Positions 19,272-23,928 of a stretch of DNA of 64,000 bases are shown one piece after another (the first letter of the stretch is position 1; each line of letters starts with the position of its first letter). The stretch comes from Streptomyces agglomeratus (lineage in GTDB: Bacteria; Actinomycetota; Actinomycetes; Streptomycetales; Streptomycetaceae). Position numbers and translations under genes: made by a program. Below the pieces are notes generated by a model. The model saw nothing but the letters and a program-made list of their open reading frames with translations, had not been told where the DNA came from and made no database searches. The stretch spans positions 4,223,501-4,287,500 of the forward strand of contig NZ_MEHJ01000001.1 of assembly GCF_001746415.1 (NCBI RefSeq). Reading direction: 5' to 3'.

Positions 19272-19335
19272 CCCATGGCAGCCGCGCCCCCGGAGCCGGC
19301 CGGGCGAGCGGTCAAGGGGGCGGAGCGGTCGCACA

Positions 19336-19400
19336 GTCACGGGTGGCGGTGCGGCCAAGTGGTCACGGGTGGTCGTGCGGCCCAGTGGTCACGGGAGCGG
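19336..19400. repeat. 26-bp tandem repeat, 2.5 copies
   Basis: Two units starting GTCACGGGTGG (19336-19361 and 19362-19387) differ at a few positions. A third partial copy runs to 19400. They lie between two convergent genes. Confidence 0.75.
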
Positions 19401-19449
19401 GCGCGGGGCGGGGGCGGAGGAAGCGTCCCCCGCCCCCGCCGGTACCCCG

Positions 19450-20520
19450 TCACCCCGCTGGGGCCGGGCCGCCCGCCGCCCCCGGCAGGCTGACGGCGAC
19501 CGTCGCCTCCGCGTCGCCCGCCGTCACGACCTTCACCGACACCTTGCGCGCGGTGTCACTCAGTTCCGTACCGGCCTTGAACGCGTCGGCGTCCGCCGCC
19601 TTGCCCTCGCCCGGCGTCGGATCGATCAGTTCCGACCTCGTGTAGTCGCCCCCGGAGACCCGGTAGGCGTGGACGCCCTGGATCGCGCCGTCGAGCGAGC
19701 CCGCCCGCGCCCGCAGCTCCACGACGAGCTTGTCCTTGTCGCCGAGCGGGACCCGCAGCGCGCGCACGCCGGTGCCGCCGCCGTGCAGCGGGCGGAGCGT
19801 GTACGTACCGGACGCGCTCACGTCGGTGAGTTCGTCGCCCGTGAGCCACTTGTTGTGGATCAGCTCCGCCGCCGACAGACCGGCCGCCGCATGTCCGCCG
19901 CCCATGACCGACTTGTGGCTGTCGCCGTCCTCCTTGCAGCCGGCGCCCAGGTCACCGTCCGCACAGCGCAGCCGCTTCTGGTGGTGGTAGCCGAGGTTGT
20001 GGCCGAACTCGTGGACCAGCGCGTCGATCGAGAAGTGCTGGGACGGCATCCACGTCTTCCCGCCGCCGACCGTGCCGAGGCCGGCGTACGCGCACTTGGC
20101 CTTCTCGTTCGGGAAGACGATCGAGACATGGTCGTACGCGCTCTCCCCGACGCCCTTCCCCGCCAGCGCCTTCTGCGCCTCGTCCGCGATCCGGCCGCTG
20201 TCGCACGCGGCGGCCATGGGGAGCGTGAGCGGTCCGATCACCTGGTCGGCGCCGGCGGGGGCGAAGGTCGTTCTGCCGCGGGTGATCTCGTCGTAGTACG
20301 AGATCAGGGAACCGTCCTTCCCGTAGTACGTGTCCTCCAGAGTCGACTTGAGCTTGGCGGCGTCGGCGAACCCGCTGTCGCTGAAGTCCACCATCACGAC
20401 CTGCACGGTGCGCCGGCCGGCGGGCGCCTGGGCGGCGTGCGTCGCGGCGGGGAGCGCCGCCGACGCCAGCACGACGCCGCAGGCGAGGGCCGACAGACGG
20501 ACTCGGGAGGTCGACTGCAT
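19450..20520 (-). CDS. Secreted zinc metalloprotease, M11 (gametolysin)-like
   Basis: 356 residues. A cleavable signal peptide (RLSALACGVVLASAALPAATHAA) directs export. The catalytic motif HEFGHNLGYHH is the extended HExxHxxGxxH of metzincins, followed by the conserved Met-turn region (SHKSVMGGG). A beta-rich C-terminal domain follows. It lies 96 nt downstream of the sulfatase on the same strand, so both may share the leader-peptide-controlled promoter. Substrates are unknown; proteins in the surroundings are likely. Confidence 0.85.
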   Translation of the reverse strand: MQSTSRVRLSALACGVVLASAALPAATHAAQAPAGRRTVQVVMVDFSDSGFADAAKLKSTLEDTYYGKDGSLISYYDEITRGRTTFAPAGADQVIGPLTLPMAAACDSGRIADEAQKALAGKGVGESAYDHVSIVFPNEKAKCAYAGLGTVGGGKTWMPSQHFSIDALVHEFGHNLGYHHQKRLRCADGDLGAGCKEDGDSHKSVMGGGHAAAGLSAAELIHNKWLTGDELTDVSASGTYTLRPLHGGGTGVRALRVPLGDKDKLVVELRARAGSLDGAIQGVHAYRVSGGDYTRSELIDPTPGEGKAADADAFKAGTELSDTARKVSVKVVTAGDAEATVAVSLPGAAGGPAPAG

Positions 20521-20616
20521 GTGGGGGTTCCTTCCGCCGCGAAGCGAAAACAGTGGGGGAGGAGATCGTGATCACGCGCGACGTCCGCTAAACCACGACA
20601 TCTCCCCCAACACCCC

Positions 20617-22050
20617 TCAGGACACGGCCGAGTACGGCAGCAGCCCCGCGTCCGTCCGTTCCCAGGCGGCCCGCAGCGCGGCCAGCCGGCCGGGCTCGGC
20701 CGACGCCTTGTCCGCCTGTTCGCGCGCGTCCTCGGTGAGCCGGAACAGCTGGTCCTTGCCGCCGGGGCCCCGGTAGTACTTCCACTCGCCCCGCCGCAGC
20801 GCCCGTTCACCCCGTACGCGCCAGAACAGGTCCCGCCGCGGCGCCCGTTCACCGCGCAGCAGGTACCCGGCGAGACTCGCGCCGTCCAGCGGGTACGCCG
20901 GATCGGGGCGCGCGCCGCCCAGCTCCAGCAGCGTCGCCGTCCAGTCAGGCGTGAACACCGGCACGTCGCTGACCTGGCCGCCGTCGATCCTGGCAGGCCA
21001 GCGCACGAGGGTCGGCACCCGTATGCCGCCCTCCTTCAGGGAGGACTTGTTGCCGGACAGGGGCCAGTTGTACGAGAAGCGTTCGCCGCCGTTGTCGCTC
21101 GCGAAGAAGACCAGGGTGTCCTTCTCCTGCCCCGACCGTTTCAGCGCCCCCAGCACCTCACCGACCGACCGGTCCAGGTCCTCGACCATCTCCTTGTACT
21201 TCTCGACCGAGCCGCCGTCCTGGTGCCACAGCGCCCCGCGGTCGCCCGCCTTGATCCGGCGGACGATCTCCGCGCTCCGCTCCTCGTCGCCGTCGGCGAT
21301 CCAGGGCCAGTGCGGGGTGGTGAAGTTCAGGTTCAGCAGCCACGGCTTGTCGTGCTCGCGCTGTACGTACTCGCTCACCCGCTCGGTCAGGATCCGCGTG
21401 TAGTAGCGCAGGTCCTTGTACTGGGCGTCGCCCTCGTAGAGGTCGTACTCCCCGCCGGGACCCAGCTTCGAGTAGTACTCCAGCGCGCCCCCGAAGTTGC
21501 CGAAGAACTCGTCCCAGCCCGACCGCGTCGGGCTGTAGTCCGGCAGATACCCGCAGTGCCACTTGCCGATCAGCGCGGTCGCGTACCCGGCGCCCTTCAG
21601 CAGCGAGGCGAGCGTGGGGTGCGTCGGCTCCAGACCCACCGACCGGTCCGCGATCGGTTCGGCGAGCCCGCCCTTCGTACGGCCGGGGAAGCGCCCGGTG
21701 TAGAGGCTGAAGCGGGTCGGGGAGCAGGTCGCGGAGCCGGAGTACCCGTCGGTGAACCGGACCCCCTGGCGGGCGAGCCGGTCGAGGTGCGGTGTACGGA
21801 TGTGAGGTGATCCGTACGAGGACAGGTCGGCCCAGCCCAGGTCGTCGCCCAGGATGAACAGGATGTTGGGCCGCCGGGAGCGCCGCTCGGCGGCGGCCCG
21901 GAACGGCCGCTCGGCGGTGGCACCGGCGGCGGCAGAGCCCGTGCCAGGGGCGGCGAGCGCCGGCCCGGCCGAGAGGCCGACGGCCGCGGCGCCCGCGCCG
22001 ACGACGCCCCCGAAGGCGCGCCGGGACAGCTTCTGGTCGTGCGAGGTCAC
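20617..22050 (-). CDS. Secreted sulfatase (formylglycine-dependent)
   Basis: 477 residues that hydrolyse sulfate esters outside the cell. The N-terminus has a Tat signal (SRRAFGG followed by a hydrophobic stretch). Metal ligands are in FILGDDLGWADLSSYG. The nucleophile cysteine, to be converted to formylglycine, is in ATCSPTRFSLYTGR. Further active-site residues are in ALIGKWHCGY and FFASDNGGERF. GTG 22050 is chosen for its GGAGA ribosome-binding site and Tat spacing; GTG 22074 would add eight residues. A cysteine-type leader peptide lies upstream, suggesting induction when sulfur is short. Confidence 0.9.
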   Translation of the reverse strand: MTSHDQKLSRRAFGGVVGAGAAAVGLSAGPALAAPGTGSAAAGATAERPFRAAAERRSRRPNILFILGDDLGWADLSSYGSPHIRTPHLDRLARQGVRFTDGYSGSATCSPTRFSLYTGRFPGRTKGGLAEPIADRSVGLEPTHPTLASLLKGAGYATALIGKWHCGYLPDYSPTRSGWDEFFGNFGGALEYYSKLGPGGEYDLYEGDAQYKDLRYYTRILTERVSEYVQREHDKPWLLNLNFTTPHWPWIADGDEERSAEIVRRIKAGDRGALWHQDGGSVEKYKEMVEDLDRSVGEVLGALKRSGQEKDTLVFFASDNGGERFSYNWPLSGNKSSLKEGGIRVPTLVRWPARIDGGQVSDVPVFTPDWTATLLELGGARPDPAYPLDGASLAGYLLRGERAPRRDLFWRVRGERALRRGEWKYYRGPGGKDQLFRLTEDAREQADKASAEPGRLAALRAAWERTDAGLLPYSAVS

Positions 22051-22196
22051 AGGGTCTCCAGTGATGAAGGGCACACCGGCCGGGCCCCGTGGCGGCGCGG
22101 ATCAGCGCGCGGCCAGGGCCGGGCCGTGGCGGGGAGCGGTGCGCGGAGGCACCGGGGAAAGGAGAGGTGAACTACGGGGCGCGGCGGTGCGCGCGC

Positions 22197-22289
22197 CTAC
22201 GCGCAGCGACAGATGGCGCTCGCGACACGGACCAGGTCGACGTGGCGGCGCTCCACAAGCGTGACGGAGAAGTCACCGAGGGGCTGCAT
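22197..22289 (-). CDS. Cysteine-rich-end leader peptide upstream of the sulfatase
   Basis: 30-codon ORF from ATG 22289 to TAG 22197. Its last residues, ERRHVDLVRVASAICRCA, match the short actinobacterial leader peptides (HVDLxRxxSAxC) found before sulfur-assimilation genes. Those act as cysteine-responsive attenuators, in which ribosomes stall at the C-terminal Cys codons when charged tRNA-Cys is low. The next gene on the strand is a sulfatase, which fits. No Shine-Dalgarno is present. A -10-like box lies 8 nt before the ATG, implying a leaderless mRNA. Too short for ordinary gene calling. Confidence 0.8.
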   Translation of the reverse strand: MQPLGDFSVTLVERRHVDLVRVASAICRCA

Positions 22290-22297
22290 GAGGCGGG

Positions 22298-22327
22298 AGC
22301 CTGACGGAGCCACCACGTACCTGTCAA
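22298..22327 (-). promoter_or_regulatory. Promoter of leader peptide-sulfatase transcript
   Basis: TTGACA (-35) occupies 22322-22327 and CAGGCT (-10) 22298-22303 on the minus strand, with an 18-bp spacer. The leader ATG begins 8 nt after the -10 box. Confidence 0.6.
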
Positions 22328-22391
22328 GCGCAGGGTGCCGGGGAGGGGCGGCCGCCCGTATCCCCAATTCGGACCAGTGGTCGATCTCGCC

Positions 22392-22404
22392 TACACTCGG
22401 TGGT
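22392..22404 (+). promoter_or_regulatory. purF -10 box, leaderless start
   Basis: TACACT at 22392-22397 lies 7 nt before GTG 22405. There is no Shine-Dalgarno sequence. The geometry is the same as at purD. TTCGGA at 22368-22373 is a weak -35 candidate with an 18-bp spacer. Confidence 0.55.
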
Positions 22405-23928
22405 GTGCCTCGTGGTGATGGACGACTCAACCACGACCTGCTCCCCGGTGAGAAAGGCCCCCAGGACGCTTGCGGCGTCTTCGGTGTCTGGGCTCCCGGC
22501 GAAGAGGTCGCCAAGCTCACCTATTTCGGACTGTATGCCTTGCAGCACCGTGGACAGGAGTCCGCGGGCATCGCAGTGAGCAACGGGTCCCAGATCCTGG
22601 TCTTCAAGGACATGGGACTGGTCTCGCAGGTCTTCGACGAAACTTCCCTCGGCTCCCTCCAGGGCCACATCGCGGTCGGTCATGCCCGCTACTCCACCAC
22701 CGGAGCCTCGGTGTGGGAGAACGCGCAGCCGACGTTCCGTGCCACCGCGCACGGCTCGATCGCCCTGGGTCACAACGGCAACCTGGTCAACACGGCGCAG
22801 CTCGCCGAGATGGTCGCCGCCCTGCCCAAGGAGAACGGCCGCGCGACCCAGGTCGCCGCGACCAACGACACCGACCTGGTCACAGCCCTGCTGGCCGGCC
22901 AGACGGACGACGACGGCAAGCCCCTCACGATCGAGGAAGCCGCCGCCAAGATCCTCCCCGAGGTCATGGGCGCCTTCTCCCTCGTCTTCATGGACGAGGG
23001 GACGCTCTACGCCGCCCGCGACCCGCAGGGCATCCGCCCGCTGGTCCTCGGCCGGCTGGAGCGCGGCTGGGTGGTGGCCTCCGAGTCCGCCGCCCTCGAC
23101 ATCTGCGGCGCCGCGTACGTCCGTGAGGTCGAGCCGGGCGAGATGCTCGCCATCGACGAGAACGGTCTGCGCACCTCCCGATTCGCGGAAGCGAAGCCCA
23201 AGGGCTGCGTCTTCGAGTACGTCTACCTGGCGCGCCCGGACACGGACATCGCCGGCCGCAACGTCTATCTCTCGCGTGTCGAGATGGGCCGGAAACTGGC
23301 CAAGGAAGCCCCGGTCGAGGCCGACCTGGTGATAGCTACGCCCGAGTCCGGCACCCCCGCGGCCATCGGCTACGCGGAGGCCAGCGGAATTCCGTACGGC
23401 TCGGGCCTCGTCAAGAACGCGTACGTCGGCCGGACCTTCATCCAGCCGTCGCAGACGATCCGCCAGCTCGGTATCCGCCTGAAGCTCAACCCGCTCAAGG
23501 AAGTCATCCGCGGCAAGCGCCTGGTGGTCGTCGACGACTCGATCGTCCGCGGCAACACCCAGCGCGCCCTGGTCAAGATGCTCCGCGAGGCCGGCGCCGC
23601 CGAGATCCACATCCGGATCTCCTCCCCGCCGGTGAAGTGGCCCTGCTTCTTCGGGATCGACTTCGCGACCCGCGCGGAGCTCATCGCCAACGGCATGACG
23701 ATCGACGAGATCGGCAAGTCCCTGGGCGCCGACTCGCTCTCGTACATCTCCATCGACGGGATGATCGAGTCGACCACCATTCCCAAGGCGAACCTGTGCC
23801 GCGCCTGCTTCGACGGCGAGTATCCGATGGAGCTCCCGGACCCCGAGCTGCTCGGTAAGCAGCTTCTGGAGACCGAGCTCGCGGCCGGCCCGGCGAGCGC
23901 CGCGGCCGAGGCGCTCCGTCGCCCGTAA
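22405..23928 (+). CDS. purF: Amidophosphoribosyltransferase
   Basis: First committed enzyme of purine synthesis, making phosphoribosylamine from PRPP and glutamine. 507 residues. The nucleophile cysteine is residue 23 (GPQDACGVFGVWAPG), so a 22-residue propeptide must be removed. The PRPP site is LVVVDDSIVRGNT. The late cysteines (KWPCFFGIDF, LCRACFDGEYP) suggest the oxygen-sensitive iron-sulfur form known from Bacillus. GTG 22405 is chosen on family alignment and on the adjacent -10 box; longer frames upstream run through the promoter. Confidence 0.96.
   Translation: MPRGDGRLNHDLLPGEKGPQDACGVFGVWAPGEEVAKLTYFGLYALQHRGQESAGIAVSNGSQILVFKDMGLVSQVFDETSLGSLQGHIAVGHARYSTTGASVWENAQPTFRATAHGSIALGHNGNLVNTAQLAEMVAALPKENGRATQVAATNDTDLVTALLAGQTDDDGKPLTIEEAAAKILPEVMGAFSLVFMDEGTLYAARDPQGIRPLVLGRLERGWVVASESAALDICGAAYVREVEPGEMLAIDENGLRTSRFAEAKPKGCVFEYVYLARPDTDIAGRNVYLSRVEMGRKLAKEAPVEADLVIATPESGTPAAIGYAEASGIPYGSGLVKNAYVGRTFIQPSQTIRQLGIRLKLNPLKEVIRGKRLVVVDDSIVRGNTQRALVKMLREAGAAEIHIRISSPPVKWPCFFGIDFATRAELIANGMTIDEIGKSLGADSLSYISIDGMIESTTIPKANLCRACFDGEYPMELPDPELLGKQLLETELAAGPASAAAEALRRP

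Follow-up and report, generated by a model that had tools for sequence, protein, structure and literature searches.

A putative cysteine-type leader peptide with a single conserved UGU codon upstream of a secreted sulfatase in Streptomyces

Does a 30-codon open reading frame (ORF) that precedes a secreted sulfatase gene in Streptomyces agglomeratus place that gene under the control of cysteine, and by what means would it do so? We addressed this question in a window of 64,000 nt, the whole stretch of DNA analysed here (GCF_001746415.1, NZ_MEHJ01000001.1, positions 4,223,501–4,287,500). The ORF, MQPLGDFSVTLVERRHVDLVRVASAICRCA, is located on the minus strand at 22197–22289, with its ATG at 22289 and its TAG at 22197. 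Its only cysteines are C27 and C29, separated by an arginine, so that a run of consecutive Cys codons is absent. The divergent neighbour purF (22405–23928, plus strand; TIGR01134), with a probable GTG start at 22405, was used as a landmark. A preliminary description of this DNA had read the ORF as a cysteine-type leader peptide on a leaderless transcript.

Assignment to that type was supported by NCBIfam. The peptide matched NF042934, "putative leader peptide" (cis_reg_atten), with 42.1 bits (E 4.3e-11) against a curated cut-off of 27, and the short ORF shares its strand with the sulfur-type gene directly 3' of it. It carries the same motif as the family. In a whole-genome search, the same leader scored 40.9 bits and was the best of six matches over the NF042934 cut-off. 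Weaker likeness was seen to the Cys-rich leader models Ms4527A (25.6 bits) and Ms5788A (23.6 bits), both below the cut-off of 45. The name and short description of NF042934, by which we compared it, mention neither a sulfatase target nor a rule on UGU nor a C-rich spacer.

The gene behind the leader encodes a secreted (Tat) sulfatase of 477 aa (20617–22050, minus strand), with a PF00884 domain (4.6e-59) and the CxPxR motif of formylglycine sulfatases in the form CSPTR. The cysteine of this motif, Cys109, is Cys in all 80 orthologue loci described below. From reading the sequence, the likely start is GTG 22050 rather than the 22074 given in the ORF list, as GGAGA ends 4 nt before it and the Tat motif SRRAF follows. 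Carrageenan S1 sulfatases are its best relatives of solved structure, a likeness by sequence alone, and two matches to PF03781, the family that includes formylglycine-generating enzymes, were detected in the genome.

To place the leader in context, we collected 80 sulfatase orthologue loci from named genomes by a genome scan. The leader was found upstream of the sulfatase at 77 of them, which supports the link between leader and sulfatase suggested earlier. At the remaining three, the record starts just before the match (L063), a run of N is present just upstream (L067), or the leader has been lost (L112). The last case, in S. typhae, is a natural uncoupled variant: the promoter persists together with the bases ATGCAGCCT, the remainder of the leader is gone, and the same ATG reads MQPHEQSRSFRLSRRSFAGG..., directly into the sulfatase signal peptide. 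A first sample of relatives (L020–L031, including the window's own genome) had the leader at 10 of 12 loci. Among these, L030 is a sulfatase orthologue without a leader, the match at L031 covers the C-terminal part of the sulfatase only, and the Streptomyces orthologue L028 retains just a shrunken ORF, MRPSPALCR, with the TGT kept and a promoter layout that is similar by eye. An HVDL leader was not found upstream of 16 more distant sulfatase loci (L032–L047, two of them pieces of one gene), a check that is weak where the match begins inside the gene and that gave one chance regex hit, in L047. In S. clavuligerus, the leader–sulfatase unit is located on a megaplasmid (L048 and L049), and both records share 51 identical bases with the window. 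Strains of S. albidoflavus and S. griseus (L086 and L095) also carry the unit.

The gene next to the sulfatase, encoding an M11-like secreted metalloprotease (19450–20520, minus strand; PF05548, 6.4e-7), had been proposed as a partner in the controlled unit. It adjoins the sulfatase at only 5/80 loci, a count that includes a few loci with little sequence beyond the sulfatase, and we therefore rejected it as part of the unit; the associated idea of protein degradation is left unsupported. No terminator was found in the sulfatase–M11 stretch (19300–20700), and in the window the protease is possibly cotranscribed with the sulfatase.

We compared the promoter region across the 78 leaders of the sulfatase set, which includes the window. 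In the window, TTGACA (22322–22327, minus strand) is followed after 18 nt by CAGGCT (22298–22303, minus strand), which ends 8 nt before the leader ATG, as originally noted. The pattern TTGACN-N17/18-NANNNT was present in 78/78, with TTGAC 36–38 nt 5' of the ATG; where several in-frame ATGs were available the one with TTGAC upstream was chosen, which slightly favours this count. The -10 box was exactly CAGGCT in 36 of the 78, and the base just before the ATG was C in every one. A sigma-70 scan of the leader region called no promoter, as it applies a stricter rule to the -10 box; the basis of the promoter prediction is comparative. We predict that transcription starts at the leader ATG or no more than about 2 nt from it, and translation of the leader would probably begin on the 5'-terminal base of the mRNA, or nearly there. 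The S. typhae variant fits this arrangement, as it indicates that the leader's promoter serves the sulfatase and that its ATG can start translation in place. Taken with the conservation of the leader at sulfatase loci, it suggests that leader and sulfatase share one (near-)leaderless transcript.

Aligning the upstream regions of orthologous sulfatases had been recommended as a check, and its outcome at the sequence level confirms that the leader ORF and the promoter boxes are real and more than chance. Apart from its short length, nothing would mark the ORF as a chance one without function at this locus; given the leader at 77/80 loci and the invariant promoter spacing, the probability of that is vanishingly small.

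Leaders of this kind had been said to precede sulfur-assimilation genes, and the rest of the genome bears this out for five of its six other leaders. Six leaders exceed the NF042934 cut-off and a seventh falls below it; the genes behind the seven encode the sulfatase, a PLP-dependent cysteine synthase-like protein, a cysteine dioxygenase, a sulfite/nitrite reductase, an FMN reductase, a rhodanese, and, behind the sub-cut-off leader (L007), a dicarboxylate-type symporter (PF00375) that is perhaps a cystine transporter. The same themes recurred elsewhere. Downstream genes, picked by our own codon-composition rule, were PALP (36), sulfatase (15), luciferase-like monooxygenase (12), CDO (8), sulfite/nitrite reductase (8), and rhodanese (7) for 93 Streptomyces leaders, and rhodanese (37), sulfite/nitrite reductase (8), luciferase-like (4), and PAPS reductase (3) for 65 leaders of other Actinomycetes. 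Searches detected family members in 61/61 Streptomyces genomes and in 110/148 genomes of the class Actinomycetes. In a phylum sample searched at a stricter E-value it was found in 6/119 genomes, all six inside that class. One locus, L223, has two family leaders on opposite strands about 100 nt apart, both with TGT.

The codon usage of these leaders was assessed with the H of HVDL numbered 0, so that position 11 is Cys by the definition used to find them, with its codon left free; in the window this is codon 27 (22209–22211, minus strand). Position 11 was TGT in all 158 family leaders scored (93 Streptomyces, 65 other), which are kin by descent, so that such counts are not independent trials. 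Background usage was estimated at each locus from a single long ORF, chosen for its base composition, and was 35 TGT among 214 Cys codons and 30 among 216 in the same loci (14–16%). The other cysteines of the 158 leaders showed the opposite preference (179 TGC, 24 TGT), and those at position 4 were TGC in 45/45 and 35/38. In the sulfatase set, the position was TGT in 77 leaders and TGC in one (L129), against 52 TGC and 14 TGT at other leader cysteines. Most family loci were the top-scoring matches of each search. Of 165 loci given, seven were initially missed; six of these were recovered, yielding seven leaders, all with TGT, and the leader at L286 was not found. A further 14/14 loci, some lower-scoring and at least two of them repeats, also had TGT.

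As controls, we examined the cysteines of neighbouring genes. The sulfatase genes hold 150 TGC and no TGT, and the cysteine positions of purF and sulfatase together were TGT in 59/502 cases. One purF cysteine column (257, query numbering) was TGT in 42/58 loci, far over background, purF being within the flank at 58 of the 80 sulfatase loci. A TGT-rich column is therefore not unique, and what appears to stand out is a TGT column that is fixed across the class. Codon bias relative to background, calculated per sequence, was highest at position 11 (1.80 and 1.96), followed by Ser AGC at position 8 (1.55 and 0.80) and by position -3 (0.96 and 0.84). The UGU position is 0–5 codons before the stop in 137/158 leaders and 1–5 codons before it in 78/78 of the sulfatase set. 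This pattern points to the uncommon UGU as marking the place where a cysteine-starved ribosome would stop.

A fixed third base would also be expected if the UGU were kept as an RNA or DNA signal, such as a pairing partner or a protein site, instead of for decoding. The dyad GTGAC-N-GTCAC inside the leader (22261–22276 in the window), present in 49/78 sulfatase leaders, could be a hairpin or an operator of this sort. However, flanking third positions vary and the codon bias peaks at position 11; the AGC preferred at position 8 is two changes away from TCN; and a comparison of 601 bases with Rfam, at E up to 1, gave no match, on which grounds a riboswitch was also rejected. We consider a signal of this kind very unlikely.

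The peptide is conserved as well, and in a different manner from the codon. Among the 158 leaders, D at position 2, R at 5, and R at -2 were present in 158/158, L at 3 in 157/158, and L at -5 in 156/158; these Asp, Arg, and Leu residues upstream of the cysteine are fixed as residues with varying synonymous codons, although the family model and the finder select for part of this conservation. In the sulfatase set, whose members were found via the sulfatase, R at -2 (76/78) and L at -5 (75/78) are outside the search pattern used. With the Cys codon in the A site, the D and the R would be 8 and 12 residues from the residue on the peptidyl-tRNA. In TnaC of E. coli, Asp16 and Trp12 have the same spacing to Pro24, a match that may be a coincidence. 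TnaC senses free tryptophan at a stop codon, and a Rho site is located just behind its halted ribosome. The resemblance thus comprises spaced key residues in the nascent peptide, a ribosome halted near the leader stop, and a Rho site behind it; the difference is that the sensor proposed for our leader is a sense codon, specifying the amino acid in short supply.

Invariant residues over varying codons are what one would expect of a translated upstream ORF whose signal is not Cys-tRNA but, for instance, free cysteine or some other ligand in the tunnel, in the manner of a ligand-dependent arrest peptide, and 22 of the 78 sulfatase leaders have a single cysteine. Yet at the sensor position the codon itself is fixed, an indication that decoding matters, and some class members (L219, L221, and L222) contain Cys-codon runs, as expected for tRNA sensing. 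As the family was found with a peptide model, its conservation was in part selected for. Sensing of a ligand other than Cys-tRNA is, in our judgement, distinctly unlikely.

How decoding of the leader could be passed on to the sulfatase was assessed from the RNA that follows. The spacer between leader and sulfatase (22051–22196, minus strand; 146 nt) is C-rich and G-poor, and is a candidate Rho-loading region. Over about 100 nt from the leader stop, the C/G ratio was 1.4–2.0 in all three leader sets, versus 0.8–1.25 in bins further upstream, with the exception of 1.67 in the sulfatase-set bin over the leader start; in the sulfatase set it remains close to 1.3 beyond this stretch, inside the gene, whose coding strand is mildly C-skewed (0.120). 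We were able to assign a sulfatase start at 69 of the 78 loci, 65 of which entered the skew test and 63 the opening-energy test below. The spacer C-skew was 0.287 (n = 65), compared with 0.046 for 104 control upstream regions from these loci, and the skew after the leader was positive in 93/93 Streptomyces and 62/65 other leaders. Within the window, one of 20 other upstream regions was more skewed than that of the sulfatase (0.38 versus 0.30) and four exceeded 0.2, so skew alone does not single out this unit. A consensus scan found no intrinsic terminator in 21950–22500, and a read-out of that type was rejected.

A second possible read-out is translational attenuation, in which the leader RNA hides the sulfatase ribosome-binding site and a Cys-stalled ribosome opens it. 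There is a precedent in the polycysteine leaders of M. smegmatis, and masking the leader slightly lowered the predicted opening energy of the site (9.04 to 8.32 kcal/mol, p = 0.03, n = 63). The real leader, however, hid the site no more than codon-shuffled leaders did (9.04 versus 8.71 kcal/mol in the predicted folds, p = 0.63, n = 63 of 78), and on this result hiding of the sulfatase start appears less likely as a specific role of the leader. In the window itself, masking changed the predicted value from 7.53 to 7.43, the 260-nt leader region folded no better than its shuffles (z = -0.74), and, as noted above, a Cys-codon run is lacking. Across loci, the leader-to-gene spacer ranged from 30 to 574 nt by our own start calls. 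We regard translational attenuation as rather unlikely. The C-rich spacer, the lack of a terminator or an unusual fold in the regions scanned, and the small effect of the leader on the start favour Rho over sequestration of the ribosome-binding site, short of proof.

Putative cysteine control of the sulfatase is likely, and we consider it probable that it is exerted by a cysteine-responsive, ribosome-mediated attenuator, most plausibly of a single-UGU, peptide-assisted, and probably Rho-dependent type. In the proposed mechanism, the promoter would give an mRNA beginning at or next to the leader ATG, whose leader is then translated by a 70S ribosome. If Cys-tRNA is plentiful, the ribosome would pass the UGU at codon 27 and terminate three codons later, leaving the C-rich, G-poor RNA open; Rho would then probably load and end transcription before the sulfatase. 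Under cysteine shortage, the ribosome would halt with UGU in its A site, and its leading edge would cover the stop codon and the start of the C-rich stretch, keeping Rho off. The sulfatase would then be made and exported, and would free sulfate from sulfate esters. The fixed L, R, D, L, and R upstream of the Cys would probably be in the exit tunnel at this moment, priming the ribosome to halt.

More tentatively, at somewhat less than even probability, we extend this to the whole class: one fixed UGU, placed by the peptide before the stop codon, would serve as the cysteine sensor, with a Rho read-out on the C-rich RNA behind it. As part of this joint reading, and with the same reserve, the sensor would be peptide plus codon rather than a run of codons. 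Being read by wobble, a lone UGU may be sensitive enough, and this would account for its resistance to drift toward UGC in these GC-rich genomes. If the reading is right, a UGU-to-UGC change should alter regulation with the amino acid unchanged; with the fixed codon, the vaguely defined "putative leader peptide" family can be tested at a single codon, and the rule would help to find cysteine-controlled genes across actinomycetes.

Finally, we compared the leader with known systems. In M. smegmatis, polycysteine leaders are said to act by translational attenuation, as proposed by Canestrari and colleagues in 2020. That proposal is cited in the portions consulted of PMC9031893 and PMC13236596, and polycysteine leaderless short ORFs of mycobacteria are described in the corresponding portion of Shell et al. 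(2015; PMC4633059). The mycobacterial leaders resemble the present one in being leaderless short ORFs (here by promoter prediction) with Cys codons near the end and sulfur genes downstream. They differ in that the window leader has no Cys run, has a fixed peptide motif, and precedes a secreted sulfatase; moreover, the hiding of a ribosome-binding site proposed for them has little predicted sign here.

Candidate cys leaders in Mycobacterium, P. acnes, and B. longum were described by Seliverstov et al. (2005; PMC1262725). In the sections consulted, Rho is raised as a possibility for the mycobacterial ones, but the case is called weak, the motifs not being conserved. Those leaders stand before cys genes and likewise lack clear terminators; they differ in having Cys runs and, within the same sections, in including no Streptomyces case, whereas the C>G skew reported above is near-universal in Streptomyces and other leaders alike. 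For uORFC-8-2, a Cys-codon leader before cysS in Rhodobacterales, attenuation is proposed in the part consulted of PMC8632094; this leader has two tandem Cys codons, a dominance of UGC, and an intrinsic terminator, and is from another phylum. The S. lividans leader catalogue (PMC8079986) comprises eight leaders, none described as cysteine-dependent in the text consulted. One of them, metL, a methionine-type leader before metNIQ, ends in CMCRRMCAF with three cysteines and might be readable as a cysteine leader too.

In the open-licence literature searched, part of it as extracts, we did not find the leader motif joined to a sulfatase or the UGU rule stated, nor "HVDL" together with "leader peptide". 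Elements of this kind are already known; what appears to be new within that literature is the sulfatase target, together with the fixed UGU and the C-rich spacer. Also absent from the preliminary description were the codon-fixed UGU, the peptide-fixed residues, and the C-rich, G-poor nature of the RNA behind the leader. The locus adds a secreted, probably sulfate-ester-scavenging enzyme to the genes behind cysteine-type leaders; if the proposed control is true, part of the release of sulfur in soil by Streptomyces would be set directly by the cysteine supply of the ribosome. A minor observation concerns the divergent neighbour: TACACT ends 7 nt before the likely GTG start of purF (22392–22407, plus strand), which is perhaps leaderless too.
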